IMG/VR virus record: IMGVR_UViG_3300035070_000745
Coordinates: 1 to 34,381 of that record
Strand: one strand, 5' to 3'
Length of the DNA stretch: 34,381 bases
Source of the DNA: a virus
The position numbers were made by a program, and so were the translations under genes. The notes under the pieces were generated by a model. It made no database searches. It was given only the letters and a program-made list of their open reading frames with translations, and had not been told where the DNA came from. Positions 1,721-34,373 of the stretch are shown here, one piece after another (position 1 is the first letter of the stretch; every line of letters starts with the position of its first letter).

Positions 1721-1819
1721 ATGAACGATAATCAAAAAAAATACTTAGAATTTACAGCAGCATTGGCATTAAACTCAATGCTACTGTATGTTATATATAG
1801 GGTAATAGTTAGTCTTTAG
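1721..1819 (+). CDS. 32-residue single-span membrane peptide
   Basis: A short frame starting 4 bases after the preceding stop: ATG at 1721, TAG at 1817-1819, 32 residues. The N-terminus is polar (MNDNQKK) and residues 9-32 form a hydrophobic stretch long enough for one membrane helix (LALNSMLLYVIYRVIV). It continues the + strand operon with the same tight spacing, and its stop overlaps the end of the opposing 2272-residue gene by 4 bases. Small membrane peptides at operon ends in phages often act in superinfection exclusion or host-membrane modification; that is only a possibility here. It could also be a chance frame. Confidence 0.45.
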   Translation: MNDNQKKYLEFTAALALNSMLLYVIYRVIVSL

Positions 1820-4800
1820 TTTCGACTTTCTCTTTTACCTCGGCTTTCTCTTTTAGCTCGGCTTTCTCTTTTACCTCTCCCTTTCGACTTTTTCTTACTC
1901 ATATTATTCATATCTTTATAGATTTGTTTACGAGTCAAGCTTCGTAAGTCTTTATAGAATGGTATAACTCCAAGGTGTCCCAACACTTCTAACATTGCTA
2001 AGTTTTTCTCTTTGTCATATTTACTTTGAGTCTCTTCGGTTTTAGCATCAGGCTTAGTAAAAGCTGATGTTGCAAATCTTGAGGACTTTAATAGTGGAGA
2101 GTATGGTCCTGTTAAATTTACGAGTACATCATAGATATCAACACCACGCCCCATCTTGCCTTCAGGGACAACCTTGTAAGACAATCCATCTTTGTAGATA
2201 TTGTAATCTCCATTTCTCAATCCTGTCAAGAACTCTTTGTTAACAGGTTCTGTGATAAGCTGATTAATTACTGCCTTCGTAGCGTTACCAAAGTCTCGAC
2301 CTAATCCCATAGAGAAAACAGAAGATGCAATTGCTTGACCTAATTGTTGGTCAAAATCTTTCTCATCATCTTCTTCTTCACCAAAGAATAAATCAGACAT
2401 TATACTTGACATTAGTGTATAACCAACCATACGAGATGCAGTTGCCCCTAATAAAGCAGCTCCTTTCTTCTTGCTCAGATTACCTCTACCTATTGCATTC
2501 ATTACACCTGTACGAGCAGTCACATATTCATAGACAAGGAAGGTTGTCATAAAGTTATTAAACCTATTATACATCTTAGCCATTGCACTTGCATTGGGCT
2601 TGCTTACTCCTCTAAGTGTACCCATAAAAGGGTTGGATGCTGCACCTGCCATTACTGATGCTTCGTCTGCTTTCTTAGTTGACTCTTTTAATTGGTCTTT
2701 GTACTGACTCATATAGTCAGCATCATTCTCAGCTATCTTATCTAAGTTGGGCTTCTCTCCTGTTAGTTTCTCAAACTCAACAGAGAATGTACCAAACCAC
2801 ATAGGTCGCATTATAATCTTATCGGGAGTGGATATTAACAAATCAGCTAAACTCCCAACACCTTGCACCCACTTGCTACCTGTCATACTCCAAACTTGGT
2901 CTACCCTATTGGTATACCTGTCTTTTGCAGACTTAGCTTTCTTAGCTCCTTCCCCGGACATTAAGTTAGTGTCAATCATTCTGCCCGACATATCTCCGTT
3001 TGGATAGATACGAGTTATGTTTGTGCTTTCAAGGTTCTTCATTGCTTCAGGAGCAGCGTCACTATTTAAGAAACCAACTCCTATTTTAGCTCCGGAAGTA
3101 AATTCCTTTGGACTTGCAATCATAGCAAACGCTGTGTTCGATGAAAGTTCTGCTATAAATCGAGGAGCACTTGCAAGTATTGCTCTATATCCATTTCTAT
3201 TTATCCAATCTAAAACTCTATCAGCAAAAACAGATTTTTGATAAGCCTTGTTAAATTGATTGTCTATCGACTCTTCCCAACCTTTTCTTATACCATTGAA
3301 TATATCTCTTTTTTCTTGATTATAATCTCCACTTTCTTTTAGTTTCTTCTCTGTTGAGTTCAACGTTCTCTTTGAAGTCCTAACAGGCTCAGTCATATAA
3401 AAGTCTAACAAGACACCTTTAGCTCCCTTAGTCGCTGACTTATACACATCAAAATTCAATGCTGAAATTGCACCCGTTCTTTTAATCAACGACTTGGCTT
3501 TGGTGGAAGGCTGAAGACTTTCTCTGTGCTTCTGAGCATTAAACTCCATAGCATCAAATCCCTCTTTATTTATAGTGTTCAAGTGAACATAATTATTTCT
3601 TGGTATAATACTCTCACCTCTAATTATTGCAGCAGTCTGTTCCGCAATAGGACCTAACTCAGCATTCACCTCTTGAATAGTTTTAATAGAAGCCTTCTCA
3701 GCCTTATTGAAACTTTCGTACAATAGTTCTGCATCAATCTCTCCCGTCTCTTTATTGGTAAACTTATCTAAGATTTCTTGCAACATTTCAGAATCCGATG
3801 CACCATACACTTCAAGGTTTTGGTCTTTGATTGAATCTATATTCTTTTCTATAAATGCTTTAGCTTGGTTTACTTCAGGATTACCTAAATTGGAATCATA
3901 TTCAAGCTGAATCATATAAACCATTTGCTTGAACTTAGACATCAATGTCTTATTACCGTTGTTTTTAAATGACTTATAAACAGCATCCTCAGCTTTGTCT
4001 ATTTTGCTTGACACTTTTTTAAAGGCTACTTCGTATTGCTCAATAGCTTTAGCTGTGTCTTCAAACAAAGACTCGTATAAAGGCTTTCCATAAAAGTCAC
4101 CGAACAATTGGTCGATGTAATACAATGGATTCCTTCTTATCATTTCAAGTACAGCACCTTTTTTAGTAAACATACTCTTGAATGCACCTATACGTTTAGA
4201 TAGTGGGAGCATCTTGGCATTACCAATAGCATCTACCATTGTGTTTGATTTTAAATTGGCAGCCATTTTCTCAACCATCACTTGAGCTAAGTGAGGGAAG
4301 TATCCATTGTTGATATTATCAATTAGTGCCTCAACTTGATTTAGCTCCTGAAGAGATAAACCATCTAATGCATCTACGCTGTTTATTAAAAAGTTAAACT
4401 TATCTCCTTGTTGTCTTTCGTACTCACTTGAAAGCTCTGAAACTTTTAAAGCAGGAGCTTCACTTATACTCTTAATGGCTTCTTGTCTTTCAGCCTCTAT
4501 TTCCTCTTCACTTTTAACTTCCTTGACTTTTTTAGGTTGGATTTCAGATTTATACTTTGTCATTATCTCAGCATCTGCTTCACTAATAACCTCTTCATCC
4601 AACATTTTCTTTATAGTCTTAGCATAGTCAAGTTGCCCTGTCTCTTCATCGACTACCTTGTTTCCAAAAGACTCTAAGCTATCTTGTAATTCAGGTATCT
4701 TTGATAGCTCTAAGTCAACTGCATCAAGTATATCCTTGACTACCTTAGCAGTCTCTGACATTTCATTAAGGTTTAATACAGTTTTTCTTTCCCCAAACTC

Positions 4801-7800
4801 TGAAGCCAATTCCATATATTTATTGAATACTGACTCAGGAATAAGGTTTGGATTAATTGCAAATATTCTTTGCAAATCTCCTGATACTGCACTTGCAAGA
4901 CCAATCTTACTTTTTATATTTGTCTTAGCATTTTTTCTTAGCTTGTTTGCCTTAGCAATATTCTCTGCATAGTTTGCATCTCTAAAGACTCTGCCCATAT
5001 ATTCAACAAAGTTTTCAATAGACTTTTCTTTGAGCATATTTACATTTGCAAATTTCTTAATAATTGCAGCAGACTGCTTGGTTGATATATTGCCCGACTT
5101 AACCATCTCTTTTACATCTTTAGCAACTTGAGTGCTTGTAGATTTAAAAGCCCTTAGAGCATCCTTTGCTCCCTTGTTTATGTCTCTAATCCTCTGTACA
5201 ACTAACTGCTTCTGAGACATTGTAACCTTCTTGCTTGGGTCAACACCAAGTATTTTCTTTACTGATGGTGCAGCCTTTTCTTTTATTCCAAGTTTTTTCC
5301 TTACATCTCTAAATAATTGTTCTCTTTGTATATCAGTAGCGTTCTCATATAGCTTGGTTCCTTGTAGGTATGACAATACATTTTTAGGTATCTCAGAAAA
5401 CTTTCTACCTCTTTGCTTTGACTTCTCTATGATACCATCTACCTCTTTTATAACACGCTGAGTTTCAATAGTTTGCTCAGGAGTAAGTTCTGCTTCTTCG
5501 GTAATTTCTGCTTCTGTTTCAACAGCTACCTCTTCCTTAGTAGCTACTTCTTCCTTAGTAGCTACTTCTTGTGCAGCTCTAACTTGTGCTATCTTAGAGT
5601 CGTATGTAGCTTCAATTTTACTTACGTCTTCATCCGTAAATGGCTTACCATCAACAACAGGAGCTTCTCCTGTTTTCTCAGCTTCAGCCTTAGCTAATAC
5701 ATAAGGCTCTAACTCAGCAGCTTTCTCTTGCTCTAATGCAGCTACTTCTTCCTCGACTTGCTGTTCAGCTTTGTCGGCTTCGACTTCAGTCGGTTCGGTA
5801 ATGGTCCCTGTTCCGGGTACTGTTTCTCCCATTGTTGGGCGACCTTCGGCAGGTTCTTGTGCATCCACCGTCTCTGTGCTTGGCTCTTGAATGGCATCTT
5901 CTTTTGTTTTTGAAAGTTCTACAAGTCTCTCGTTTATATTTGCGAGTTCCTCTATTTGTGGTGTAGCTAACTTAGGGTCAGCTCCTTCTATCTCTTGTTC
6001 TAATTGTTTTTTTCTATTAAGAATAGTAAACGCCTCTGATTTACTTTCCGCAGGTGCATCTCCTTGAAAGAACTCCTTATTGGACTTTAGTATACCAATA
6101 CCCTCGTTCAACGCAGAAAGTTCAGCTTCAGCACCCTTCTTTGTCATAAGACCACTCTCTACTTTAGTCTTTAACTTTGTTACATATATGCTCTTTAATT
6201 CTTCTCTTCCTTCAAATAATTGGAATGCATTAAAGTCATCTGCACTCATTGTGGTTTTATCAGACATTGCAGATTTTACCGCCTTTGGAGCACCTAATAT
6301 GCCACCTCCTACTGCTTCTTGTGCTCCTGCATATAGAGACTCTGCAATTATATCAACAAAGGTATCAGGATTCTCAAACATCTTTTTCCCTTTTACTTCA
6401 TTGTATATACCCTTTGCAGTTATGTCTGCTACCTCTTGAAGAAATCCTGTTTCAAACTCAGCAGCTCCTGCCGCACCAACTCTTATTAAACCTTTCGCTA
6501 AGGCACTATTTATCTCTGTCTCTACAAGGTCTGTAAATTGTTTAGCTGTTGTTCTTGCTGTGGACTTACCTACAACTTTAGACACAAGTTTATTTAGCAT
6601 ACCTCCACCCTTAAAAAGATTTGTAAGACCTACCTTTTCAAGAACACCAACCGTTAAAGCCAATGGTGCTTTTACAAACATTTTCTCTGATTCTTTTATG
6701 TCAGCAAAGTCAGGGTCATTTGATATCTCTTTATTCACAGCATCAGATGCAAAGGAAACCATAGCTAATGTTCCTGCCGGTGCTCCTACAACTGTAGCTG
6801 CCATAGCAGGTATACTCCTTGCCAATCCTAAAATAGCTCCACCAACAAATCCTTCTGACTCTAAAGCAGTCCATTGTTTTGTAGTTGATTCGTCTCCTAT
6901 TGCATCTACTAATCCTGTTCTAATAGCATTTAATGTACCTTTACCCAAGTCAGCATAGTCTGCTGCTTTTGAGAATATATTCCTTGGTATACCTTCTTTA
7001 GCATCTTCGTATCCTGCAAAATACTTTTTCCCCTTTCGAGATATATCAAGCACTTCTGAGAACGCCTTGTCGTAGTCTGTGAAATTTGCTCCGACTACAT
7101 TCTTCAATAAGGTTCCTGCTTCTATACCCTTGATAGCTCCTTCTGCTACTAAACCAATCTTTGTGGCTATATCTGTTGCAACAGGTGTCCTACCACCCAT
7201 AGATTTTTTTAACTCATCTAAGGTCATTTCCTCTGCGTTCTCAGGAATCTCTATATCATTCTCCTTAGATACCCTTATTATTTCTTTTTTAAAGTCTTCA
7301 TCGCTAAGACCTGAGCCTGCCTTTTCTTCAAGGTAAGTGGATGCATCAATTGCATAGTCAACTACTCCTGCTCCAACATCTCCAAAACCACCTAATACTT
7401 CATTGAATATACCACCCACATAATCGCCTTGCTTACCTCTTACGGTTGCAAAGTCACCTGCCATAACATCAAGCATAGCACCTTGCTTTTCTAAACCAAC
7501 TTTCTCTTTGATTAAGGCTTCTTTTTGTGCGGTAGCTTTAGCAGCATTTTCTACATAGGACTGATACTGTGAACTTAGTATTGGGTCTGCATTTATATCT
7601 TCAACAGATAAACCACTAAACACCTTACTATCTTCTATTAATTGGTTTTCAAGTGCGTTATAATCACTAACTGATTTTACATAATCTTTTGTCCTATCAT
7701 TGATAGCCATTATCCCCTGCTTAATACGGGCATCACTTCCTGCAATTAATTTTTCTTTGTCTTTGTCTTCAGGTTTAAATACATCTCTATTTTCCTCAAG

Positions 7801-8634
7801 ATATTTTTTTAGGTTTTTTGCTATATCTCCTGCATCATCAAACACCACATCTAAATTTACATATAATGGTGCAACCCCTTCTTTAGATACAATCATTCCG
7901 TCTCCAAACATATCAGTAGGTTTAAAGTCAAAACCATATTGTTTAAAGATATCATTCATAAAGGGAACAACATCTTCTTCATTGGTCTCAATAAGGTCTT
8001 CTGTTATGTTCTCCAAGTTGAATTTAAACTTGTCTTCCTGTGCTCTTTCTCCTATTATGCTTAACTCTTTTCTAAGTTCTTTTGCTTCCTCAGCCTTTTC
8101 TTCAATGGCTTCATCCATTGCTTCTTTACCAAGGGGGACATCAACTACAGATATATCAGCTTGAACTTGCTGCTTATATTCAGGGAATGTAGCTTCTTCT
8201 GCTCTTTGCTGTAATGATATTACAGCTTCTTCATCAGCTTTAGCAGCAGCCGCTATCTGAGCTTCGCTTGGAGCCTCTACTCCTTCATAAAATTTAGGTT
8301 GTACTTCTTGTGTTGGTGTCTCCTCTAATTGCTCAGTAAGGAATGACTGTAAGTCTTGAGGCTCTGCATCAGATTCTTGAGGCTCCAAAGAACCATCCAC
8401 CAAGAATGATTCCAAACCGTCTTTTTTTTTTACAGGAGGGTCTACAGGAATACCATTGTACTTTGCAAAAAAATCTTCTTTTCCTTTTGAATAAAAACCA
8501 TCTCTCGATACGACATTAAATACTTTCTCACGATAGTCACTATCATTATTATATCTTTGATAAAATTCATCCTCACTTTTTGAGTAGTAACCCTCTCTTG
8601 AAAGTAATTCGTATAGTTTTTTTATTTCGCTCAT
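1816..8634 (-). CDS. giant internal virion (ejection) protein, 2272 residues
   Basis: The longest gene of the window and the last of the late region. Its place after two other internal-protein-like genes matches the third and largest ejection or cargo protein of podoviruses (T7 gp16-like by position). Visible parts: two copies of a 24-residue motif at 6-29 and 37-60 (G-[YF]-Y-S-K ... F...Y-N); Gly/Ala-rich hydrophobic segments near 400-425 and 600-630; a Glu/Ala-rich coiled-coil region near 900-1060 containing a tandem 6-residue repeat; long helical stretches; a hydrophobic segment near 2055-2080 (GAALLGATASRMVGYTLMSS); and a very basic C-terminus with repeated K-R-E-S-R. I see no lytic transglycosylase signature and no DxDGD polymerase motif. 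Role inferred: enters the host with the DNA and crosses or lines the membrane. Confidence 0.7.
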   Translation of the reverse strand: MSEIKKLYELLSREGYYSKSEDEFYQRYNNDSDYREKVFNVVSRDGFYSKGKEDFFAKYNGIPVDPPVKKKDGLESFLVDGSLEPQESDAEPQDLQSFLTEQLEETPTQEVQPKFYEGVEAPSEAQIAAAAKADEEAVISLQQRAEEATFPEYKQQVQADISVVDVPLGKEAMDEAIEEKAEEAKELRKELSIIGERAQEDKFKFNLENITEDLIETNEEDVVPFMNDIFKQYGFDFKPTDMFGDGMIVSKEGVAPLYVNLDVVFDDAGDIAKNLKKYLEENRDVFKPEDKDKEKLIAGSDARIKQGIMAINDRTKDYVKSVSDYNALENQLIEDSKVFSGLSVEDINADPILSSQYQSYVENAAKATAQKEALIKEKVGLEKQGAMLDVMAGDFATVRGKQGDYVGGIFNEVLGGFGDVGAGVVDYAIDASTYLEEKAGSGLSDEDFKKEIIRVSKENDIEIPENAEEMTLDELKKSMGGRTPVATDIATKIGLVAEGAIKGIEAGTLLKNVVGANFTDYDKAFSEVLDISRKGKKYFAGYEDAKEGIPRNIFSKAADYADLGKGTLNAIRTGLVDAIGDESTTKQWTALESEGFVGGAILGLARSIPAMAATVVGAPAGTLAMVSFASDAVNKEISNDPDFADIKESEKMFVKAPLALTVGVLEKVGLTNLFKGGGMLNKLVSKVVGKSTARTTAKQFTDLVETEINSALAKGLIRVGAAGAAEFETGFLQEVADITAKGIYNEVKGKKMFENPDTFVDIIAESLYAGAQEAVGGGILGAPKAVKSAMSDKTTMSADDFNAFQLFEGREELKSIYVTKLKTKVESGLMTKKGAEAELSALNEGIGILKSNKEFFQGDAPAESKSEAFTILNRKKQLEQEIEGADPKLATPQIEELANINERLVELSKTKEDAIQEPSTETVDAQEPAEGRPTMGETVPGTGTITEPTEVEADKAEQQVEEEVAALEQEKAAELEPYVLAKAEAEKTGEAPVVDGKPFTDEDVSKIEATYDSKIAQVRAAQEVATKEEVATKEEVAVETEAEITEEAELTPEQTIETQRVIKEVDGIIEKSKQRGRKFSEIPKNVLSYLQGTKLYENATDIQREQLFRDVRKKLGIKEKAAPSVKKILGVDPSKKVTMSQKQLVVQRIRDINKGAKDALRAFKSTSTQVAKDVKEMVKSGNISTKQSAAIIKKFANVNMLKEKSIENFVEYMGRVFRDANYAENIAKANKLRKNAKTNIKSKIGLASAVSGDLQRIFAINPNLIPESVFNKYMELASEFGERKTVLNLNEMSETAKVVKDILDAVDLELSKIPELQDSLESFGNKVVDEETGQLDYAKTIKKMLDEEVISEADAEIMTKYKSEIQPKKVKEVKSEEEIEAERQEAIKSISEAPALKVSELSSEYERQQGDKFNFLINSVDALDGLSLQELNQVEALIDNINNGYFPHLAQVMVEKMAANLKSNTMVDAIGNAKMLPLSKRIGAFKSMFTKKGAVLEMIRRNPLYYIDQLFGDFYGKPLYESLFEDTAKAIEQYEVAFKKVSSKIDKAEDAVYKSFKNNGNKTLMSKFKQMVYMIQLEYDSNLGNPEVNQAKAFIEKNIDSIKDQNLEVYGASDSEMLQEILDKFTNKETGEIDAELLYESFNKAEKASIKTIQEVNAELGPIAEQTAAIIRGESIIPRNNYVHLNTINKEGFDAMEFNAQKHRESLQPSTKAKSLIKRTGAISALNFDVYKSATKGAKGVLLDFYMTEPVRTSKRTLNSTEKKLKESGDYNQEKRDIFNGIRKGWEESIDNQFNKAYQKSVFADRVLDWINRNGYRAILASAPRFIAELSSNTAFAMIASPKEFTSGAKIGVGFLNSDAAPEAMKNLESTNITRIYPNGDMSGRMIDTNLMSGEGAKKAKSAKDRYTNRVDQVWSMTGSKWVQGVGSLADLLISTPDKIIMRPMWFGTFSVEFEKLTGEKPNLDKIAENDADYMSQYKDQLKESTKKADEASVMAGAASNPFMGTLRGVSKPNASAMAKMYNRFNNFMTTFLVYEYVTARTGVMNAIGRGNLSKKKGAALLGATASRMVGYTLMSSIMSDLFFGEEEDDEKDFDQQLGQAIASSVFSMGLGRDFGNATKAVINQLITEPVNKEFLTGLRNGDYNIYKDGLSYKVVPEGKMGRGVDIYDVLVNLTGPYSPLLKSSRFATSAFTKPDAKTEETQSKYDKEKNLAMLEVLGHLGVIPFYKDLRSLTRKQIYKDMNNMSKKKSKGRGKRESRAKRESRGKRESRN
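1822..1875. repeat. three tandem 18-bp repeats encoding K-R-E-S-R
   Basis: Three near-identical 18-bp units (1822-1839, 1840-1857, 1858-1875), differing at one or two bases, in the end of the 2272-residue gene. On the coding (-) strand they yield a basic C-terminus of repeated K-R-E-S-R with a Gly or Ala between. Confidence 0.9.
5525..5570. repeat. tandem 18-bp repeat, two and a half units
   Basis: Units at 5525-5542 and 5543-5560 differ at one base, and a partial third follows. They lie in the 2272-residue gene and encode a repeated six-residue E-E-V-A-T-K segment in its Glu-rich coiled-coil region. Confidence 0.85.
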
Positions 8635-11824: not shown

Positions 11825-12622
11825 TTATGGGAATGATTTCATAACCTCAGATAATACTGCGTATAGTTCTACCTTAGATGTGTTGTCGTTTGTCAGAGTA
11901 AACTGTCCGTAGTGACCCAAGATACCCTGAGACTCAGCTACTGAGTTCTTTATGTATAGTATATACTCTGTTGTTCCAACAGGAACTGTACCTGTTGAGT
12001 TGTTGACAACCACATTGTTAATGCCCTGTGGTAAGTTTTGATTTATTGCTGTGACTACACCAAACAAAGTAGGTGTACTACTACCCCAATATACATAGTC
12101 CCCAATACTTATAATACTGCCAACCGGAGTATTGACATTAAAGTCAATCGTAGATACTGTAGTTACCGTAGTTATATTAGAACTTGTACCTAAGCCATTT
12201 ACTGAACGTAATGCGTATTGGTCTAATGTTGCAGGAACCGTTCCACTATTTCTAACGAAAGCAAAGAATGTACCCTCCTTCTCCTCAAACCAATCCTCAT
12301 CAATAAATCCTGTGGTCTGTTGGTCGCTAATCAATGAGACATCCCAACGGTCATCTCCTCCAAGCTCTATAGTCTTGAACAGCTTATTCTCTAAGGGAGA
12401 GTCATTGAATACCGATATCACCTCAGAGTTATACTGAACACCATAGTAATTGTTTCGAGTCTCGTTTGTATTATGCCTGTATAGGTTGCCTCCCTTCCAA
12501 GTATAAAAGTAATTGTTCATACCCATCATAAAGTCAGGGTAGTACGAATAGAATGACGGGAATCCCGTAACCCCTCTATCGTAAGTTAGTGTATAATTAT
12601 TTCCTGCTATTACTTCACTCAT
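11825..12622 (-). CDS. tail protein resembling the end of a tail-stabilisation beta-propeller
   Basis: A 265-residue beta-rich protein. Its N-terminal two-thirds carries the pattern G-[FW]-x-S-F-x-S-Y, MNNYFYTW, L-Y-R-H-N, R-N-N-Y-Y-G, N-D-S-P, F-K-T and E-K-E-G-x-F-F, which I associate with the last part of the large tail stabilisation (muzzle-type) proteins of marine podoviruses. Here it is a separate gene, 9.0 kb region end, two genes away from the large tail protein. Residues about 165-230 look like a small beta module (IISIGDYVYW...GVVTAINQN). Likely a component of the tail barrel or tip. Function inferred from pattern and neighbours. Confidence 0.6.
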   Translation of the reverse strand: MSEVIAGNNYTLTYDRGVTGFPSFYSYYPDFMMGMNNYFYTWKGGNLYRHNTNETRNNYYGVQYNSEVISVFNDSPLENKLFKTIELGGDDRWDVSLISDQQTTGFIDEDWFEEKEGTFFAFVRNSGTVPATLDQYALRSVNGLGTSSNITTVTTVSTIDFNVNTPVGSIISIGDYVYWGSSTPTLFGVVTAINQNLPQGINNVVVNNSTGTVPVGTTEYILYIKNSVAESQGILGHYGQFTLTNDNTSKVELYAVLSEVMKSFP

Positions 12623-21071: not shown

Positions 21072-22502
21072 TTAGTCTTGGAATAAGAAGAAGTTGTTTG
21101 CACCTAACGTACATACAGCTCTCTCAGATAAGAAGTGTACTTCCATAGCATCTAAGCTTGAAGTTTGTGCTCCACCTGCTGAACCTGTAATCCACGTTTT
21201 GTAACGTCTGTCTTCAGTTTCAGAAGCTCTGTATCGAACGTGCAAGAATGGACGCTTTGCGTTTTTACCCATTACTTGGTCGTATACTGAAGTAGAACCG
21301 GCAGGAACTAATAGTCCGTTTACTGCTCCACTTCCTAATCCACCACGCATAGTTGGGTCGTTTAGGTATTTCCAATCAGACTTGTAGAAGTCATATCCTC
21401 TACGGAATCCTGTGAAACCTAAGTTCAATGCCATATCTTTCTCATTGTCAAATAGACCATAAGATACACCACCGGCTGCGTTGCTTGATTGAGCAGCTAA
21501 CATATCGTCAATGTCAAAAGAGAAATCTCTATTAACAAATACTACGTTTTCTTCAATCGCACCTTGCTTGTCAAGTCTTGAGATAATACTATCCCACTCA
21601 AGAAGAGTAGTTGGGCTACCTCCGCCCCATACGTTTCCTCGGTTGTTAACAACGTAGAAGATACCTTCAGAACCTTTAGCATCTACACCTGCTGCGATTG
21701 CTCCTGAACCTGCTTCAGCAGGAACTGCTTCAATCATTGCAGTCTCTAAGTAGTCATCAAAACGTAAACGAGTTTCGTGCTCAGACTTTAAGTACCATAG
21801 GTATCCGTTTGCTCCATTTTCAGTAGTTACCTCAACCCATCCAATTTGTGCCATATCAGAACCTGATACTGCATACTTGTCTTTGATGATGATTGGAGAG
21901 TTCTCGAAGATGTAATCGTCAGACTCTAATGAGCCAACCATTCCTTCAGTTCCTTTTTTGAACTCAGAACCATAAACAAATACTGTAAACTTGTCTGTTG
22001 CTGTTGTGTTAGTAATACCGGCTGCCTCATAAAATGCAACTGTAAACTCATTATTTGTAGCACCTGAACCAACTGCTGTTACGATAGCTTTTATGCTATT
22101 AGTATCACCAATAGCTGATGTTATATTACGAGTAATCATAACTGTCTGTCCAACTCGGATAGCAATAGCGTTAGCTGTTGTTAAAGCAGGGTCAAGAATG
22201 TCATTTACTGTAAATGTAGCTGTATCTGCTGTTGTTGCAGTACCTGTTGTAACGTCTACATATTTAGTGTGTAATCTTCCTTGCTCTGCCCATTTGATAA
22301 GGTCAGAGTTAGAAGGCATCTCAGCTCCAACCATTCTAAGGAATGAGGATACTGTTCTGTTTCCATAACGCTCAAATTCTTTCTCGTAGGTATCAGGAAG
22401 ATACTGATTCAAGAAGTCGAAGTTAGTGATGTAATTTGTACTCAACGGTACTTGTTGAGCACTTGGGGTTAAATCAAAACCCGGGGTAGCTAATACTGCC
22501 AT
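21072..22502 (-). CDS. major capsid protein
   Basis: A 476-residue protein with the N-terminal region seen in crAss-like and related marine podovirus capsid proteins: Y-L-P-D-T-Y-E-K-E-F-E-R-Y-G-N-R-T at residues 35-50, then FLRMVGAEMPSNSDLI and WAEQGRLHTKYVDV (54-84). The family has the HK97 fold. Residues about 85-180 form a Thr/Ala-rich beta insertion, and the remainder is the conserved shell part. The gene follows the scaffold gene by 44 bases with an A-rich leader and is followed at once by a strong terminator, which fits high, separate expression of the most abundant virion protein. Confidence 0.88.
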   Translation of the reverse strand: MAVLATPGFDLTPSAQQVPLSTNYITNFDFLNQYLPDTYEKEFERYGNRTVSSFLRMVGAEMPSNSDLIKWAEQGRLHTKYVDVTTGTATTADTATFTVNDILDPALTTANAIAIRVGQTVMITRNITSAIGDTNSIKAIVTAVGSGATNNEFTVAFYEAAGITNTTATDKFTVFVYGSEFKKGTEGMVGSLESDDYIFENSPIIIKDKYAVSGSDMAQIGWVEVTTENGANGYLWYLKSEHETRLRFDDYLETAMIEAVPAEAGSGAIAAGVDAKGSEGIFYVVNNRGNVWGGGSPTTLLEWDSIISRLDKQGAIEENVVFVNRDFSFDIDDMLAAQSSNAAGGVSYGLFDNEKDMALNLGFTGFRRGYDFYKSDWKYLNDPTMRGGLGSGAVNGLLVPAGSTSVYDQVMGKNAKRPFLHVRYRASETEDRRYKTWITGSAGGAQTSSLDAMEVHFLSERAVCTLGANNFFLFQD

Positions 22503-23747: not shown

Positions 23748-26183
23748 TTATCTTGGGTTAAACTCCGCAAAGTCAAAACCATCTAAGCTATCCTCGTTTG
23801 ATTCAAAATTCAATGGAGGTAGATTATTCTTTCTTTGGTTAATTAACTTGCTTTGCTCTGTATTCTGTTGACTGATTCTATCCGCCTTAGCACCCTCTCT
23901 TGAAGACTCTCTATCAGCTAACGCTTGTGAGTTCATCTGTGCTAATTGAAGATTAAGTTCAAACTCTTTATCCATTAACTGAGATTTCAACATAGCCTCA
24001 TTCTTCATCTTCTCAATCTCGAATGCTACATCAGCCTGTCTGTACTGCATCTTAGCCTGAGTCTCTGCCTGTATCTTCATCTGAGCTGTTTGTGCTGCTA
24101 ACTCTTGAGACTGTATTTGCTGTTGAGCTTGAATAGCTTGCTTCTGCATAGCCATCTTCTCTTCTCTATCTTGCTTAGATATTCTCTTAACCTTTAGCAA
24201 TTGATTGGCGAGTTTAAGATTTCGTATCTCTCTAATGTCAATAGCATCCTCAAGGTTTATATCTCCCTTAGACAAAGCCATCTGAACATTCTGCTCAAGC
24301 ATTGCCTTCTGCTCTTCGTCAGGAGACATCTCGATGAATATTCCAAAGTCATATATATATAAGTCTTTGATATCACTTAGTATAGATACATTGTACTTGC
24401 CAATCTGATTTATAAACTCATCCTTAAAGTCAGAGTATTGAAGGATGTCAGCTACCCTATACGTTATAGCCTCAGATAGACTCCTACATATATATAGGCT
24501 ACCTTGTAGTATATGCCTTGTAGCTACGTTAGAGTTTAATGCTGCTAACTTCTGCAATCCTACTAACGCATTAGGGTCAGGAGAACTTCCGTCTCTTGCC
24601 TCATTTAATCCCGTTACATTTCTTATTTGGTTTAGGTAGTGATTGTAGTTAGTTAAAAGCATCTGAGTCTTGGATGCACCCGAATTAGAGTTTAGCTCCT
24701 GAATAGGAACCCTTGCATTATTAAAGTCTCCATCTCCTGTATAGCTCCTTCCGATTACACTACCCGTTTGGAAGTATAGTCGCAAAGCATCTTCAGGATT
24801 GTATGCTGCTCCCGTACCTAAGTCTACTTCACTTAGACCATCTGCATCAATAAATACACCATCAGGTACAACCCGTGATATAACCTGCTGTAGTTTTAGG
24901 TGAGTAATCTGAATCAAGTCAGCGAATGGTATCATCCTTCTAACTAAAGACTCAATAACTCCTTTATACATTCTTGGGGCAACGCATACATAGTTAGGTA
25001 TAGCGTGTTGAGTGGCAGACTGTGGTCGTACCATATTCTCCATCATATCCCACTTGAGTATAATGTTAGTACCCATAACCATAACTCCCTCATACCATAC
25101 ATCAATAGTCTTAGAAACCTTTTCAAATTTCCCTTCCTCTTGCATATCTTCAGGTGGGTTAAAGCTATCGTCTTTCTCGACCATAGACACATTACCATTA
25201 TCCTTTACCTTTCTTTTGTATACTACCTTCTTAGTGGTCTTATAGTTAAAGTAAAGTAGAGTTGCAGTATCCTTATAGAACATATCATTCTGTTGGAATT
25301 GAGCAACATCATAGTAGTCATACCAACTTTGAGAGTATTTAGATATTGTCTCTAAGTCTTCGTTGGTTAGACTTGTGTCAATCTTAACAAGCTCAGTAAT
25401 AGGTACAGTCTTAATCTCTCCCCAATAGAAACAATCTTTAAAGTGAGGGTCTTCAGTATAGCTGTATACAATATTAGCAGGGTCTACATAGTTTAGTTTT
25501 ACTCCTCCACCGGGAAGGAACTCGTGCTTGGCACATCCTATACCTAATACGGTAAGGTCATAGTCAAGCTGCTTTCTTATGTCGTTATACTTATTGCTTT
25601 CAAATATTGTGCTTATAGCCTCTTCCTCTGCAATCTCTATTGCAGGCTTGTAGTTAAGCTGCATATACAAAGCCAACTCCTCATCAGTATTAGGAAGCTC
25701 ATCAGGATTCATCGTGAAAGGATTAGCCCCTGTCTTCTCTTGTATAATCTCAAGCATAGGCTTTGCAACCATCTGCCCTTCTATCATCTGCTGATACTTG
25801 CTTCGCTTAGACATAGACATAGCATCTTGTGCATATGCCTTTGGCTCGAACATACGGTCTTGCATACCGTTAACAACTATGTCAACAAACTTTGGAAGTA
25901 TAGGTACAGGTGTCCAATCTAAGTTTAGATAACTTAAATCTCCATCAACAGCAAGCTCATTTTTATATTTACCTACTGACTGCTCACCTCTTGCATATAA
26001 TTTTAATCTTTGGAAGTCTCTCCATTGACTGTAATACCTACAAGAATTTCCATCCTTTCTAAACCACTCATACTGAATAGCCTGACCAATCTGCAACCCG
26101 AACTCGACAGTTTTTTTCTCTGCATCCGACACAAATTGATTTGGAAAACTTGTAGATGATATATTAACTTGTACCTCTTTCAT
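23748..26183 (-). CDS. portal protein
   Basis: An 811-residue protein of the crAss-like/marine podovirus portal type. Characteristic blocks near residues 50-110 are FQRLKLYARGEQS, YLNLDWTPVPILPKFVDIVV and NGMQDRMFEP. The last 190 residues are a long Gln/Ala/Met-rich coiled coil (for example QAIQAQQQIQSQELAAQTAQ) ending in an acidic tail. Length fits the large portals of this group. The portal forms the 12-subunit ring at the DNA-entry vertex, binding the terminase and the connector. The start ATG overlaps the terminase stop (ATGA), showing coupling. The long helical C-terminus may act as the barrel inside the head. Confidence 0.88.
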   Translation of the reverse strand: MKEVQVNISSTSFPNQFVSDAEKKTVEFGLQIGQAIQYEWFRKDGNSCRYYSQWRDFQRLKLYARGEQSVGKYKNELAVDGDLSYLNLDWTPVPILPKFVDIVVNGMQDRMFEPKAYAQDAMSMSKRSKYQQMIEGQMVAKPMLEIIQEKTGANPFTMNPDELPNTDEELALYMQLNYKPAIEIAEEEAISTIFESNKYNDIRKQLDYDLTVLGIGCAKHEFLPGGGVKLNYVDPANIVYSYTEDPHFKDCFYWGEIKTVPITELVKIDTSLTNEDLETISKYSQSWYDYYDVAQFQQNDMFYKDTATLLYFNYKTTKKVVYKRKVKDNGNVSMVEKDDSFNPPEDMQEEGKFEKVSKTIDVWYEGVMVMGTNIILKWDMMENMVRPQSATQHAIPNYVCVAPRMYKGVIESLVRRMIPFADLIQITHLKLQQVISRVVPDGVFIDADGLSEVDLGTGAAYNPEDALRLYFQTGSVIGRSYTGDGDFNNARVPIQELNSNSGASKTQMLLTNYNHYLNQIRNVTGLNEARDGSSPDPNALVGLQKLAALNSNVATRHILQGSLYICRSLSEAITYRVADILQYSDFKDEFINQIGKYNVSILSDIKDLYIYDFGIFIEMSPDEEQKAMLEQNVQMALSKGDINLEDAIDIREIRNLKLANQLLKVKRISKQDREEKMAMQKQAIQAQQQIQSQELAAQTAQMKIQAETQAKMQYRQADVAFEIEKMKNEAMLKSQLMDKEFELNLQLAQMNSQALADRESSREGAKADRISQQNTEQSKLINQRKNNLPPLNFESNEDSLDGFDFAEFNPR

Positions 26184-28411
26184 CTAATTATTTCGCTTGT
26201 ATTGCCCTTATTACTATACCTTGCAAAGTTAATCTTTATTTTTGATACTTTTTTCTCAGTAAAATATAGATGCCTCTGCGTTGCCATTATAGCTAAACCT
26301 GAGCTAATAGACGCATCAAATTTAGTTCTGTTAGATATATCAAACTTTGCCCAATCCTCTAAGGTCCTTACGAATACGCAATCGCCCATCTCGTCCTCAG
26401 ACTTGAAGCCAATATGCTCTTCTATGTAAGACTCTATAGCAGAGGCGTGAGCCTGTTTTACGTCTTCACTTGAGTTAGGTATACCCCCAAGCTCTTTCTC
26501 TGTCTTAGAGAGCTTGTTAGCAGGCTTATCGGGTCTGTTCATACTGAAGCCCCTATACCCTCTATTCTTAAAATGATATAATAACCTCGGCTTGTTATTC
26601 TCACACAGGAGTGGCATACCATAAAACACACAAGCCATAAGTACATCCTCAAAGAATATCTCTGCCGTATCAGGTCTTGCTATATACTCTAAAAAGAACT
26701 GATTGCTTGGTGCATCTTCCATACTAAACTTAGTCTTTCCGTGTAGTGCCCCATTAGAACCACCGCCACCAACTACTCCCGATATGTCATAGCTATCACA
26801 TCCGAACGCACCCATATGCTCATTGCCCGGATACTTGACTCCATTCTTTTCTACTACCCTATTCTGTAAGTTCTTGCTTGGTGTCCACGATACATAGAAC
26901 CGTCCCCTCTTGTCAGGGTTGAATACTACCTCTGTATCCTTTATACCATTCTTCCAAGAGAAAGACCCACGAGTTACGTGATGCTCCATAATCAAGGAGT
27001 CGTTATACTCAACCTGCTGATATATCTTAGTTAGATTAAATATAGACTGCTTGCTCTCGTCTCTAAATGCGTGTGACTCTGTCCTTGGGAACTGTCTGTA
27101 AAACTCATTCAATGCATCAGGGTCGCTCTTTAAAGAGTCAACCTCACCCTTCCAATAGTCGATAGCACCCTGAGTTATCTCCTCACCATCAATCCCAAGT
27201 ACAGGCTCTTCAGGTGTCCTAAATACAGGCATACCATACCTATCTATAAAACCCTCCATATTCCACTCCATTGGAATAAACAAAGAGTATAGTCCACTCT
27301 TAGTCTGACCATTAGAGTTACGGTTTGTAACATCAGAGTCTCTATATAATTTCTTAAACTGCTCTCCACCTTTCTTTAGTGCATTCGAGGTAGACCCCAT
27401 CATACACTTACCAATAACCTTGCTACCTAATCGTAGACAGGTCTTAGTAACCCTCCAATTATTTAATATATTATTTGGCTTCAACCACTTACCACTCTCA
27501 TCGTGGACTAACAGCAATAGCTTCTCCCCATCATAGGAGTTATCATCTGTATTCTTCCAATCAATAGTGGTATCCAATCCGTACAACTCATCAGCAGTTG
27601 TGTCGTACATATTCTTTTTTGTAATCTTTGATGCAGGAATCCTAAATGCTAACTCAGTCTTAGGCTTATCCATACCATCCATAATAGGCTTAAAGAAAAA
27701 AGGTAGCCTGCTGTTTATTGGCACGACCTTATCCGTAAACATCTTCTTTGCATCGCCCCCTGTCTTGGATAGCATACCAACCCTCGCATCCTTTGCGAGT
27801 GTACCTGTATTCACACACTCAGATGAACTCATAAATGAGAAACCTGAACGTCTTATCTTTAGATAGTCTTGACCAAAGCTACGCTTGTCTGCCTTGCAAG
27901 CCTCCCAATGTAAGAAAAATAATCTATTAGCCTCTCTAAAGTCAGGGTATCCTACATCAATAGAAGCCCATTGCAAGTACATATAGTGTGAGCCTGTGAT
28001 ATACGTAGGGATACCATTTGACATAAACCACATCCCCTCTTCTCTTCTCTCAAACTCTTTCTCAATATAGTCCACCCATCTATCCTTAAACTCAGATGGC
28101 TTCTCATTCCATTGGAATATGGACTGTATCCTATTTAATTCTTTTGGTATATCTGCCCTCTCCCAATACTGCTCAGATTTTTTCTTATGTCTCTTGAAGC
28201 ATTCCTTCGGTTTAGCAGGTAGCCCTATTCTTAGACTCTGTATCTCGATGACATCTCCTAACGTGCCATCCTTTGATATTATAACTAAGTCATACTTACT
28301 GTCATACCCATACGTCCAAGTCTTAGCCTTGTTCTTATTTACAAGGACTGTCTTTGGTATATAGTCTTCTATAACCCTATGTAAGTTTCTATTTAGACCG
28401 TCTTTCTGCAA
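26180..28411 (-). CDS. terminase large subunit
   Basis: A 743-residue DNA-packaging motor protein. An ATPase half has a Walker A-like segment KIRRSGFSFMSSS at about 185-197 and a Walker B with D304-E305 (LLLLVHDESGKW). The C-terminal RNase H-like nuclease has G-C-D-S-Y-D (D539), E604 and a C-terminal acidic pair near D691 and D699. These are the markers of crAss-like terminases. The Walker A lacks the usual Lys before Ser/Thr. The only possible start near the upstream gene is a TTG at 28411, because a TGA lies in frame just upstream and the next Met is at 127. The gene overlaps the small-subunit-like gene by 23 bases. Confidence 0.9.
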   Translation of the reverse strand: MQKDGLNRNLHRVIEDYIPKTVLVNKNKAKTWTYGYDSKYDLVIISKDGTLGDVIEIQSLRIGLPAKPKECFKRHKKKSEQYWERADIPKELNRIQSIFQWNEKPSEFKDRWVDYIEKEFERREEGMWFMSNGIPTYITGSHYMYLQWASIDVGYPDFREANRLFFLHWEACKADKRSFGQDYLKIRRSGFSFMSSSECVNTGTLAKDARVGMLSKTGGDAKKMFTDKVVPINSRLPFFFKPIMDGMDKPKTELAFRIPASKITKKNMYDTTADELYGLDTTIDWKNTDDNSYDGEKLLLLVHDESGKWLKPNNILNNWRVTKTCLRLGSKVIGKCMMGSTSNALKKGGEQFKKLYRDSDVTNRNSNGQTKSGLYSLFIPMEWNMEGFIDRYGMPVFRTPEEPVLGIDGEEITQGAIDYWKGEVDSLKSDPDALNEFYRQFPRTESHAFRDESKQSIFNLTKIYQQVEYNDSLIMEHHVTRGSFSWKNGIKDTEVVFNPDKRGRFYVSWTPSKNLQNRVVEKNGVKYPGNEHMGAFGCDSYDISGVVGGGGSNGALHGKTKFSMEDAPSNQFFLEYIARPDTAEIFFEDVLMACVFYGMPLLCENNKPRLLYHFKNRGYRGFSMNRPDKPANKLSKTEKELGGIPNSSEDVKQAHASAIESYIEEHIGFKSEDEMGDCVFVRTLEDWAKFDISNRTKFDASISSGLAIMATQRHLYFTEKKVSKIKINFARYSNKGNTSEIIR

Positions 28412-28670
28412 ATCCCTGTTTTGTATCTGTCTTCTTAGGACCGTTCTTCAAAGACTCTAACGCCTCCTTCTCAGCTTCAATCCTATTCAATATCTCAAAC
28501 GCATCGAATATAGCTAACTTCTTTGTAGCTGCTGCGTTCTTTAATCTGTCAGCAGAGATATCATCCTCCGGGTCGTGTTTTATAATAGCCTCCTTGGAAA
28601 CCTTTATTAACTGCTCTACTGCCTTATATCCTGCTTCTATTATTTTTAATTTTATATCCTTTGAATCCAA
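28389..28670 (-). CDS. terminase small subunit candidate
   Basis: A 93-residue, fully helical protein directly before the large terminase, with a 23-base overlap. It has a helical N-terminus (KLKIIEAGYKAVEQLI), a central AADRLKN-like stretch and a long coiled helix (IFDAFEILNRIEAEKEALES), and a basic tail. A position immediately upstream of TerL and a helical oligomer-like nature suggest a TerS role, but no helix-turn-helix signature is certain. It has no internal Met, so its start is the TTG at 28670 (a TGA lies in frame upstream); a weaker start than the usual ATG. Confidence 0.55.
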   Translation of the reverse strand: MDSKDIKLKIIEAGYKAVEQLIKVSKEAIIKHDPEDDISADRLKNAAATKKLAIFDAFEILNRIEAEKEALESLKNGPKKTDTKQGFAERRSK

Positions 28671-28686
28671 TGCTTTATGATTTGAT

Positions 28687-29250
28687 TTATAGTTTCATTG
28701 TTATCTGATGGTCATACATCCTGTATAGCTTCTCGCCATCAATGTCAAACTCATACTCGCTCTCAGGCTTGAAGGATATCCTATCTCCATTATTAACACC
28801 CTTGCTAATCAGGTAGTCGTTGGATATCTTTACTAATCCTACAAGTGGCTCCTCCGAAAATGGTTTATATATATAGGACTCTGTTGCAGGTACAGGCTTT
28901 ACAAAACAATACCTATCATAAGAGTACCAAGTCTCATCTTTTTTATATGCGTAGAACTGCTCTAATTCTACAAAGAATAGGTCATCTTGAAAATAGCTCT
29001 TGCCACTCTTACGCCTCCCTCTCATATCGTTATAGAACTTGAATACGTTGTGGTGTACAAGTAGTGTATCTCCCTTGGAGATTTTTCCATTATATCCAAC
29101 AGGAGTCTCAATTACCTCAGCAAACCTATTAGAGAACTTGTGGTCCTCTTCTGATGTGCTTACAATAAACTCTATGCCACCAATATCTTTGGTGTTGTTA
29201 TATCTCTTGTTGTTTAATGGTTTTACAATAAATGAATGGGGTGACCTCAT
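28687..29250 (-). CDS. tandem GroES-like co-chaperonin protein
   Basis: A 187-residue protein that reads as two GroES-type (Cpn10) domains. The first (about 7-104) has F-I-V-K-P-L at 7-12, a glycine-rich loop region (K-D-I-G-G-I-E-F at 21-28), then F-A-E-V-I-E and G-D-T-L-L-V (60-65). The second (about 113-187) opens with C-F-V-K-P-V (115-120), then G-L-V-K-I-S-N-D, G-D-R-I-S-F (155-160) and D-G-E-K-L-Y-R-M (171-178), the strand and turn order seen near the end of GroES. Phage co-chaperonins (T4 gp31 and others) help host GroEL fold the capsid protein. Its location just before the packaging and capsid genes fits. The domain call is by eye. Confidence 0.55.
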   Translation of the reverse strand: MRSPHSFIVKPLNNKRYNNTKDIGGIEFIVSTSEEDHKFSNRFAEVIETPVGYNGKISKGDTLLVHHNVFKFYNDMRGRRKSGKSYFQDDLFFVELEQFYAYKKDETWYSYDRYCFVKPVPATESYIYKPFSEEPLVGLVKISNDYLISKGVNNGDRISFKPESEYEFDIDGEKLYRMYDHQITMKL

Positions 29251-29484
29251 TTAAAATTCTATGTTATACTCTATAGACACAGGCATAGTTGAAGTAAACT
29301 CTTTCCAAAGTATTACCGCCTCACTATCATCCTCAATCCATATTTTAATTGAATTACTATTATTGTCGTACATTATTAGATGGATGGTATATGCACCCCT
29401 ACCCACAGCCTGCCCTACTATGTAGTGCATAGCCCCGGATTTATAATCGGGTCCTATAGATATCTTCCTAATAATGCCTGACAT
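29251..29484 (-). CDS. conserved small phage protein
   Basis: A 77-residue beta-rich protein with the pattern I-S-I-G-P-D-Y-K, M-H-Y-I-V-G-Q, then I-W-I-E, W-K-E-F and S-I-E-Y-N at the end. I associate this pattern with small proteins lying in structural regions of Bacteroidetes phages, with no known function. Its stop is followed at once by the GroES-like gene's ATG (1 base), and it is coupled to the head-fibre-like gene by an overlap. Confidence 0.65.
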   Translation of the reverse strand: MSGIIRKISIGPDYKSGAMHYIVGQAVGRGAYTIHLIMYDNNSNSIKIWIEDDSEAVILWKEFTSTMPVSIEYNIEF

Positions 29485-33592: not shown

Positions 33593-33883
33593 CTAATATT
33601 TTCCTTTACGATTTTTTGGAGAACTTTTGGTAGAACCTCCCGGTCCTGCCCATAGCTTTTTACAAGACCAATACCTTGCAGTTAGCTTGCTCTTAGCCGT
33701 GCTACACTTGTGTCTTGCCTTGAATGACTTACGAGCTTTAGGAGAATAGTTATGACCATAGCCCTTAGCACCAAAGTGAATTAACTTCTCCTTGCCACCC
33801 TCACAGGCTTTAACCATTTTCTTCTTTCCTGCCCTGTCGCTTCTCTTTACGACATTACATTTCATCTTGCTCTTGTCAGCCAT
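33593..33883 (-). CDS. 96-residue basic Cys/His protein
   Basis: A lysine-rich 96-residue protein with C9, C27, C60, C74 and H36, H44. The core reads LIHFGAKGYGHNYSPKARKS, then F-K-A-R-H-K-C and L-T-A-R-Y-W-S-C-K-K-L-W. I recognise this arrangement from small proteins of marine phages and algal viruses, with unknown function. High charge suggests nucleic acid or head association; the Cys/His could bind zinc. Its ATG overlaps the upstream TAA (TAATG). Confidence 0.7.
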   Translation of the reverse strand: MADKSKMKCNVVKRSDRAGKKKMVKACEGGKEKLIHFGAKGYGHNYSPKARKSFKARHKCSTAKSKLTARYWSCKKLWAGPGGSTKSSPKNRKGKY

Positions 33884-34014
33884 TACTTCTTCTTACCCAT
33901 CTTATGGTATACGCTTTTTTTAATTTGCTTCTCAGATGGTAGTCCTAACATTTCAGGTTTTCCTTTAGTCTTCTTGTTTGCTGCTGTGAAATATGGTTTT
34001 AAATCTTTTTTCAT
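33883..34014 (-). CDS. 43-residue basic small protein
   Basis: ATG at 34014, TAA at 33883-33885; the start overlaps the upstream TGA (ATGA) and the stop overlaps the next ATG. The protein is Lys-rich (MKKDLKPYFTAANKKTKGKP, then MLGLPSEKQ and a K-K-K end) without hydrophobic segments. Tight coupling on both sides argues that it is translated. Function unknown. Confidence 0.55.
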   Translation of the reverse strand: MKKDLKPYFTAANKKTKGKPEMLGLPSEKQIKKSVYHKMGKKK

Positions 34015-34373
34015 TTTCGTTTTTTTCTTATTGGTGATACTTTCTTTCCTCCTGCACCCTGCTTACCTATCCTCTTCTTCTGAGCTTGCTTCTTCTTTAA
34101 CAAACTCTTAGACATCTCAGACTTGGTTACGGGTGTCTTTGAAGACACTCTCTTTGATGGTCTGCAATACTCGCTCTTTCCGCCTGTCCCACAGGGCTTG
34201 CCTGTACGGGTGTCAACCCACTTCTCAGCAGTCCACCTCTTTAGGTTAGAGCCTGCCTTGGTCTTTCGTACCTTGCCCTTAGCCTTACGACACTTAGCCG
34301 TAGCCTGAGCTGCACGAGCCGACCACTTGCCGTAGCTCTTCATTACCTTCTTATAGCAAGCGTCCTTTGGCAT
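34011..34373 (-). CDS. 120-residue very basic protein (DUF5872-like)
   Basis: A strongly basic protein. It opens MPKDACYKKVMKSYGKW, contains W-V-D-T-R-T-G-K-P-C-G and CRPSKRVSSKTP near residues 70-81, then a Lys/Arg-rich tail. The central W-V-D...G-K-P-C-G...C-R-P-S-K-R-V motif is that of a family of small proteins in cyanophages and algal viruses that I believe is DUF5872; the name is from memory. No function is known. It is the first late gene visible; the region that would hold its promoter lies beyond the end of the window. Confidence 0.65.
   Translation of the reverse strand: MPKDACYKKVMKSYGKWSARAAQATAKCRKAKGKVRKTKAGSNLKRWTAEKWVDTRTGKPCGTGGKSEYCRPSKRVSSKTPVTKSEMSKSLLKKKQAQKKRIGKQGAGGKKVSPIRKKRK

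Follow-up and report, generated by a model that had tools for sequence, protein, structure and literature searches.

The T4 protein gp31 is a phage-encoded, single-domain co-chaperonin of the GroES fold which acts on the GroEL of the host and is linked to head assembly. Tandem GroES proteins are described from plastids and apicoplasts. In chloroplasts, tandem and single co-chaperonins assemble as seven-domain hetero-oligomers (PMC5780408), and structure 7EKQ contains one single-domain Cpn11 next to one Cpn23 and two Cpn20 chains (tandem), adding up to seven domains. GroEL chaperonins owned by phages are known from EL and OBP; that of EL was reported not to cooperate with GroES in function, and no lid is known for it (PMC7185714). 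Neither co-chaperonins of the GroES fold nor tandem ones are new, and the gene family described here has likewise been annotated before, as plain GroES or cpn10: chaperonin cpn10 is a core protein of the Pervagoviridae (PMC8776804), and members annotated as cpn10 or co-chaperonin GroES, belonging to the same family (PHROG 13932) and residing at the same position ahead of the terminase gene, are found in Cellulophaga phage phi38:1, Calle, phi19:3, the Flavobacterium elemo phages and Maribacter phage Panino, with the copy of MW202828 being annotated as hypothetical protein. Within the database records and literature searched, no mention was found of the tandem build or of a pairing with a second GroES, and as far as these literature searches reach, no phage has been described as combining GroEL with both a single and a tandem GroES.

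The DNA analysed here (the window) comprises the 34,381 nucleotides of IMG/VR virus record IMGVR_UViG_3300035070_000745 and stems from a phage whose host is a flavobacteria-type bacterium. The sequence-only reading of the window had proposed a 187-residue protein with two consecutive Cpn10-type units, encoded just before the packaging and capsid genes, and both its build and its position were borne out: the open reading frame is located on the minus strand, where the 77-aa ORF, the tandem gene, the 93-aa ORF, the gene of the terminase large subunit (TerL), the portal gene and those of the structural proteins follow each other (Table 1). Family profile searches yielded no confident match for the 77-aa ORF and no match for the 93-aa ORF. 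The TerL start lies at most 0.9 kb downstream at 144 of the 151 tandem loci and at most 1.9 kb downstream at the remaining 7, the tandem gene residing just upstream of TerL across five phage lineages. By its sequence, the 187-aa ORF is a real gene: residues 1-179 of its product match the PHROG 13932 profile 'co-chaperonin GroES' (2.9e-22), at least 598 IMG/VR stretches encode relatives, and 49 non-redundant relatives could be aligned over the full length. The Pfam Cpn10 family (PF00166) is missed at its gathering cut-off (13.4 versus 21.1 bits), yet the cut-off is exceeded by the relatives of phi19:3 (31.7 bits), Calle (28.0) and L168 (26.4), in all cases with a match in the second half; the shortfall of the window protein is a matter of the detection threshold and no biological feature. 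An origin as cellular gene was rejected, the 13 genome-collection matches (12 MAG contigs of 3-65 kb from scattered taxa and one archaeal MAG chromosome) being most readily explained as binned phage contigs, and Pseudomonas transposase matches at E~1 were discarded as chance.

Table 1. Positions of the tandem gene, its parts and its neighbours in the window (G001 is the longer related record described in the text).
Feature	Position	Strand	Evidence or remark
77-aa ORF directly upstream of the tandem gene	29251..29484	minus	conserved in G001
Tandem GroES-like protein, 187 aa + stop	28687..29250	minus	PHROG match, AF2 model, PDB fold matches
Domain 1 (D1), residues 1-110, GroES-like fold	28921..29250	minus	hhalign and own AF2 model
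D1 mobile-loop motif, residues 22-30, DIGGIEFIV	29161..29187	minus	clade conservation, alignment with GroES GGIVL
Domain 2 (D2), residues 111-187, GroES-like fold	28690..28920	minus	profile match and hhalign
Shortened D2 loop, residues 121-137, PATESYIYKPFSEEPLV	28840..28890	minus	clade conservation
93-aa ORF between the tandem gene and TerL	28389..28670	minus	also in G001
Terminase large subunit (TerL)	26180..28411	minus	phrog_6681 1.4e-181
Portal protein	23748..26183	minus	phrog_6547 8.5e-144
Head/virion structural protein, probable major capsid protein	21072..22502	minus	phrog_13704 'virion structural protein' 1.9e-100; capsid role probable, from position

When the two halves were compared with GroES separately, as had been proposed along with the first reading, both turned out to be GroES-like. 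For D2 (residues 115-186), the profile of the 49-sequence alignment matched a solved GroES (8wux) with E=5.5e-5 and reached 96% and 95.8% against two GroES profiles in hhalign. The D1 profile reached 80% and 53% against the GroES profiles, and since 50 column-shuffled control alignments gave 1.5% at most against the GroES profile, a chance resemblance of D1 was rejected. A sequence search of the PDB with D1 returned no GroES match, and on the sequence level D1 is much more diverged from GroES than D2. AlphaFold2 modelled the whole protein with a pLDDT of 84 and D1 alone with 88; the best 14 Foldseek matches of the D1 model in the PDB were all co-chaperonins with a GroES fold, at a best E of 5e-3 and a probability of 1.00. 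The whole-protein model found 7ekq chains R and Q on top, which are Cpn20 and Chaperonin 23, a match to be rated as moderate (TM by query 0.56 and 0.47, rmsd 7-9). A GroES-type beta-barrel is thus indicated for each half: AlphaFold2 and Foldseek cover both the entire protein and isolated D1, and the sequence match covers D2. As a consequence of the separate D1 model and the D2 profile matches, a single unrelated fold was rejected; a recent internal duplication is unsupported as well, with D1 and D2 matching each other at 1.4% in profile comparison. Two GroES domains of about 190 residues in total, joined head to tail, are what the phage protein shares with Cpn20 and Cpn23, its top PDB fold matches (7EKQ; PMC5780408), whereas its location in a head and packaging cluster and its shortened D2 loop set it apart from them. 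The profile of the tandem protein matched GroES and Cpn11 chains in the PDB; Cpn20 itself was not matched significantly by sequence, whereas the fold match was best to it. The phage protein and plastid Cpn20 may have arisen independently.

The mobile loops of the two halves differ, as the sequence-only reading had noticed. In D1 the motif GG[IV][ED][FL] is near-invariant among 104 distinct proteins of the window clade and aligns with GGIVL, the loop of E. coli GroES, with an acidic residue in the middle of the triad instead of the V of E. coli. A mobile loop with the G-hydrophobic-x-hydrophobic motif is hence present in D1 and absent from D2 of the window clade, where the same 104 proteins conserve SYIxKPFSEEPL and possess no GroES GG-I-x-L motif. 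By alignment reading, D2 loops of GroES-like appearance were seen in phi19:3 (SLIYIPEDNKEK), L168 (GSIIVPNSGE), Calle (NGLRV) and Panino (EGVSL). As the D2 loop looks GroES-like in the Pachyviridae and Pervagoviridae relatives, its shortness in the window is probably a lineage-specific change (in elemo, too, the D2 loop is shortened), and the D2 loop would have been lost or trimmed in some lineages. At the place of the E. coli GroES roof hairpin, a short segment is found in D1 and in the single GroES of the phages, a trait shared with T4 gp31.

The window is a 34 kb fragment. The gene set was counted in the 25 tandem-bearing records of at least 42 kb. Among these records, which fall into about five lineages and thus share phylogeny, making the counts non-independent, 24 encode a separate single-domain GroES above the Pfam cut-off and 19 a phage GroEL. 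GroEL is absent from four Pachyviridae, G009 and G002, and a phage GroEL is hence not obligatory; the single GroES is absent only from G002. Both genes are often missing from shorter tandem-bearing fragments. For the window the gene set can be judged from record G001 (56.6 kb), which shares with it four DNA blocks of 89.6-94.8% identity and about 23 kb in total, the longest comprising 14.4 kb at 94.8%. In G001, the stretch 0.7-2.7 kb past the window end encodes a GroEL of 527 aa and a single-domain GroES of 85 aa with the loop TDSGLLL, and the window's own phage would accordingly carry both just off that end. GroEL and single GroES reside close to each other and apart from the head cluster with the tandem gene, in elemo on the opposite strand. 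The phage GroELs are 32-40% identical to E. coli GroEL and retain D52, the GD.TT motif and D398. Their apical GroES- and substrate-binding face differs from that of E. coli GroEL, as is expected if the partners co-adapted. A phage GroEL as such is not rare: 211 phage records, with Vibrio phages numerous among them, give a match at E<=1e-20, and GroEL and GroES were reported for Panino by its authors (PMC11590407). What distinguishes the tandem-bearing phages from EL is the presence of two co-chaperonin genes beside GroEL. The comparison with gp31, likewise drawn earlier from the sequence, holds insofar as a phage co-chaperonin is encoded within a head and packaging module; with two domains, a separate single GroES and, in most lineages, a phage GroEL, the picture of one single-domain phage co-chaperonin acting on host GroEL is incomplete.

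With a probability of roughly 60%, the protein is considered to be a tandem co-chaperonin which is made together with the head genes and caps a GroEL to fold head proteins. Herein, two GroES-like domains would be joined head to tail, D1 bearing the GroEL-binding mobile loop and D2 providing barrel and ring contacts, with its loop shortened in the window lineage. The partner would be the phage's own GroEL in most lineages and that of the host where the phage has none, as in the Pachyviridae, and the tandem protein would help head or packaging proteins to fold during virion assembly. The single-domain partner known from Cpn20 and Cpn23 has its counterpart in the single GroES of the longer records and, judging from G001, presumably of the window's phage, and a phage gene set comprising single and tandem GroES allows for the same seven-domain arithmetic as in chloroplasts. 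The likeliest ring is hence probably a mixed lid in which three tandem chains and a single-domain GroES of the phage make up seven domains. Considering the chloroplast precedent and the phage gene set, a tandem co-chaperonin for GroEL, likely within such a mixed ring, is favoured; GroEL binding, the 3:1 stoichiometry of the ring and the client protein are presumed. Several points count against this: with a single GroES already encoded, the phages could do without another lid; D1 is too diverged to find GroES by sequence in the PDB, and its triad is acidic in the middle; some records have no phage GroEL; and the co-occurrence counts come from correlated records. For relatives owning both GroEL and single GroES, a chloroplast-style mixed lid of a virus-owned folding machine becomes possible, and it is tentatively suggested that such a lid evolved independently, with about four of its seven positions carrying a GroEL-binding loop and the phage GroEL being dedicated to head proteins.

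Alternatively, three or four tandem copies may form a homo-oligomer of six or eight domains capping GroEL unaided, the single GroES serving a separate, general folding cycle. Homo-oligomers of chloroplast and Plasmodium Cpn20 do work despite the symmetry mismatch (PMC5780408), and the separation of the tandem gene in the head cluster from the GroEL and single GroES pair agrees with two distinct cycles. However, given the shortened D2 loops, such a lid would offer just three or four loops to seven GroEL subunits, and the single GroES is nearly always co-encoded, which renders this arrangement rather improbable. Comparably doubtful is a Cpn10 fold repurposed as assembly factor for head, portal or packaging, or as virion component, having lost its link to GroEL. 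The position directly upstream of TerL in all lineages seen, the strong divergence of D1, the trimmed D2 loop and the availability of another GroES would fit, but the D1 loop motif stays near-invariant within a lower-confidence stretch of the model, and distant relatives possess GroES-like loops in both halves (SGLEL and SLIYIPEDNKEK in Pachyviridae, GGVEF and EGVSL in Panino), loops for which a protein with a purely structural role would have no use.

A phage lineage with GroEL, single and tandem GroES would constitute a compact and tractable system for the question of why tandem lids evolve, bearing also on how domains in even number are fitted to a ring of seven-fold symmetry and on whether a lid can be tuned to its client, e.g., a capsid protein. 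With phi38:1, Calle, elemo and Panino, relatives are available as isolates, so that this system is testable.

Several further features were observed in the window. On the minus strand, a 265-aa protein (11825-12622) matches the C-terminal domain of the crAss-phage muzzle (PF25729, 8.2e-17), which suggests that the tail is akin to the Crassvirales one, and a 2272-aa protein (1816-8634), whose gene is the window's largest and lies where the structural cluster ends, has no Pfam match and is possibly an ejected virion protein. A 185-aa protein (563-1120, plus) contains the DnaA C-terminal helix-turn-helix domain (PF08299, 6.3e-9), shows no match to the DnaA ATPase domain and is encoded near a VRR-NUC protein at 9-248. 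Two small Lys/Arg-rich proteins are encoded on the minus strand at 33593-33883, with a DUF5754 match below the cut-off, and at 34011-34373, matching DUF5872 (1.5e-13). Among the relatives, the elemo-like record G010 (IMGVR_UViG_3300046002_004363; 99.6 kb) is about 40 kb longer than its kin of ~60 kb. A tandem relative of 64% identity resides in L231 (CP070801.1; 1.05 Mb), titled a Candidatus Aenigmatarchaeota chromosome, an archaeal MAG into which phage sequence has likely been merged or binned.
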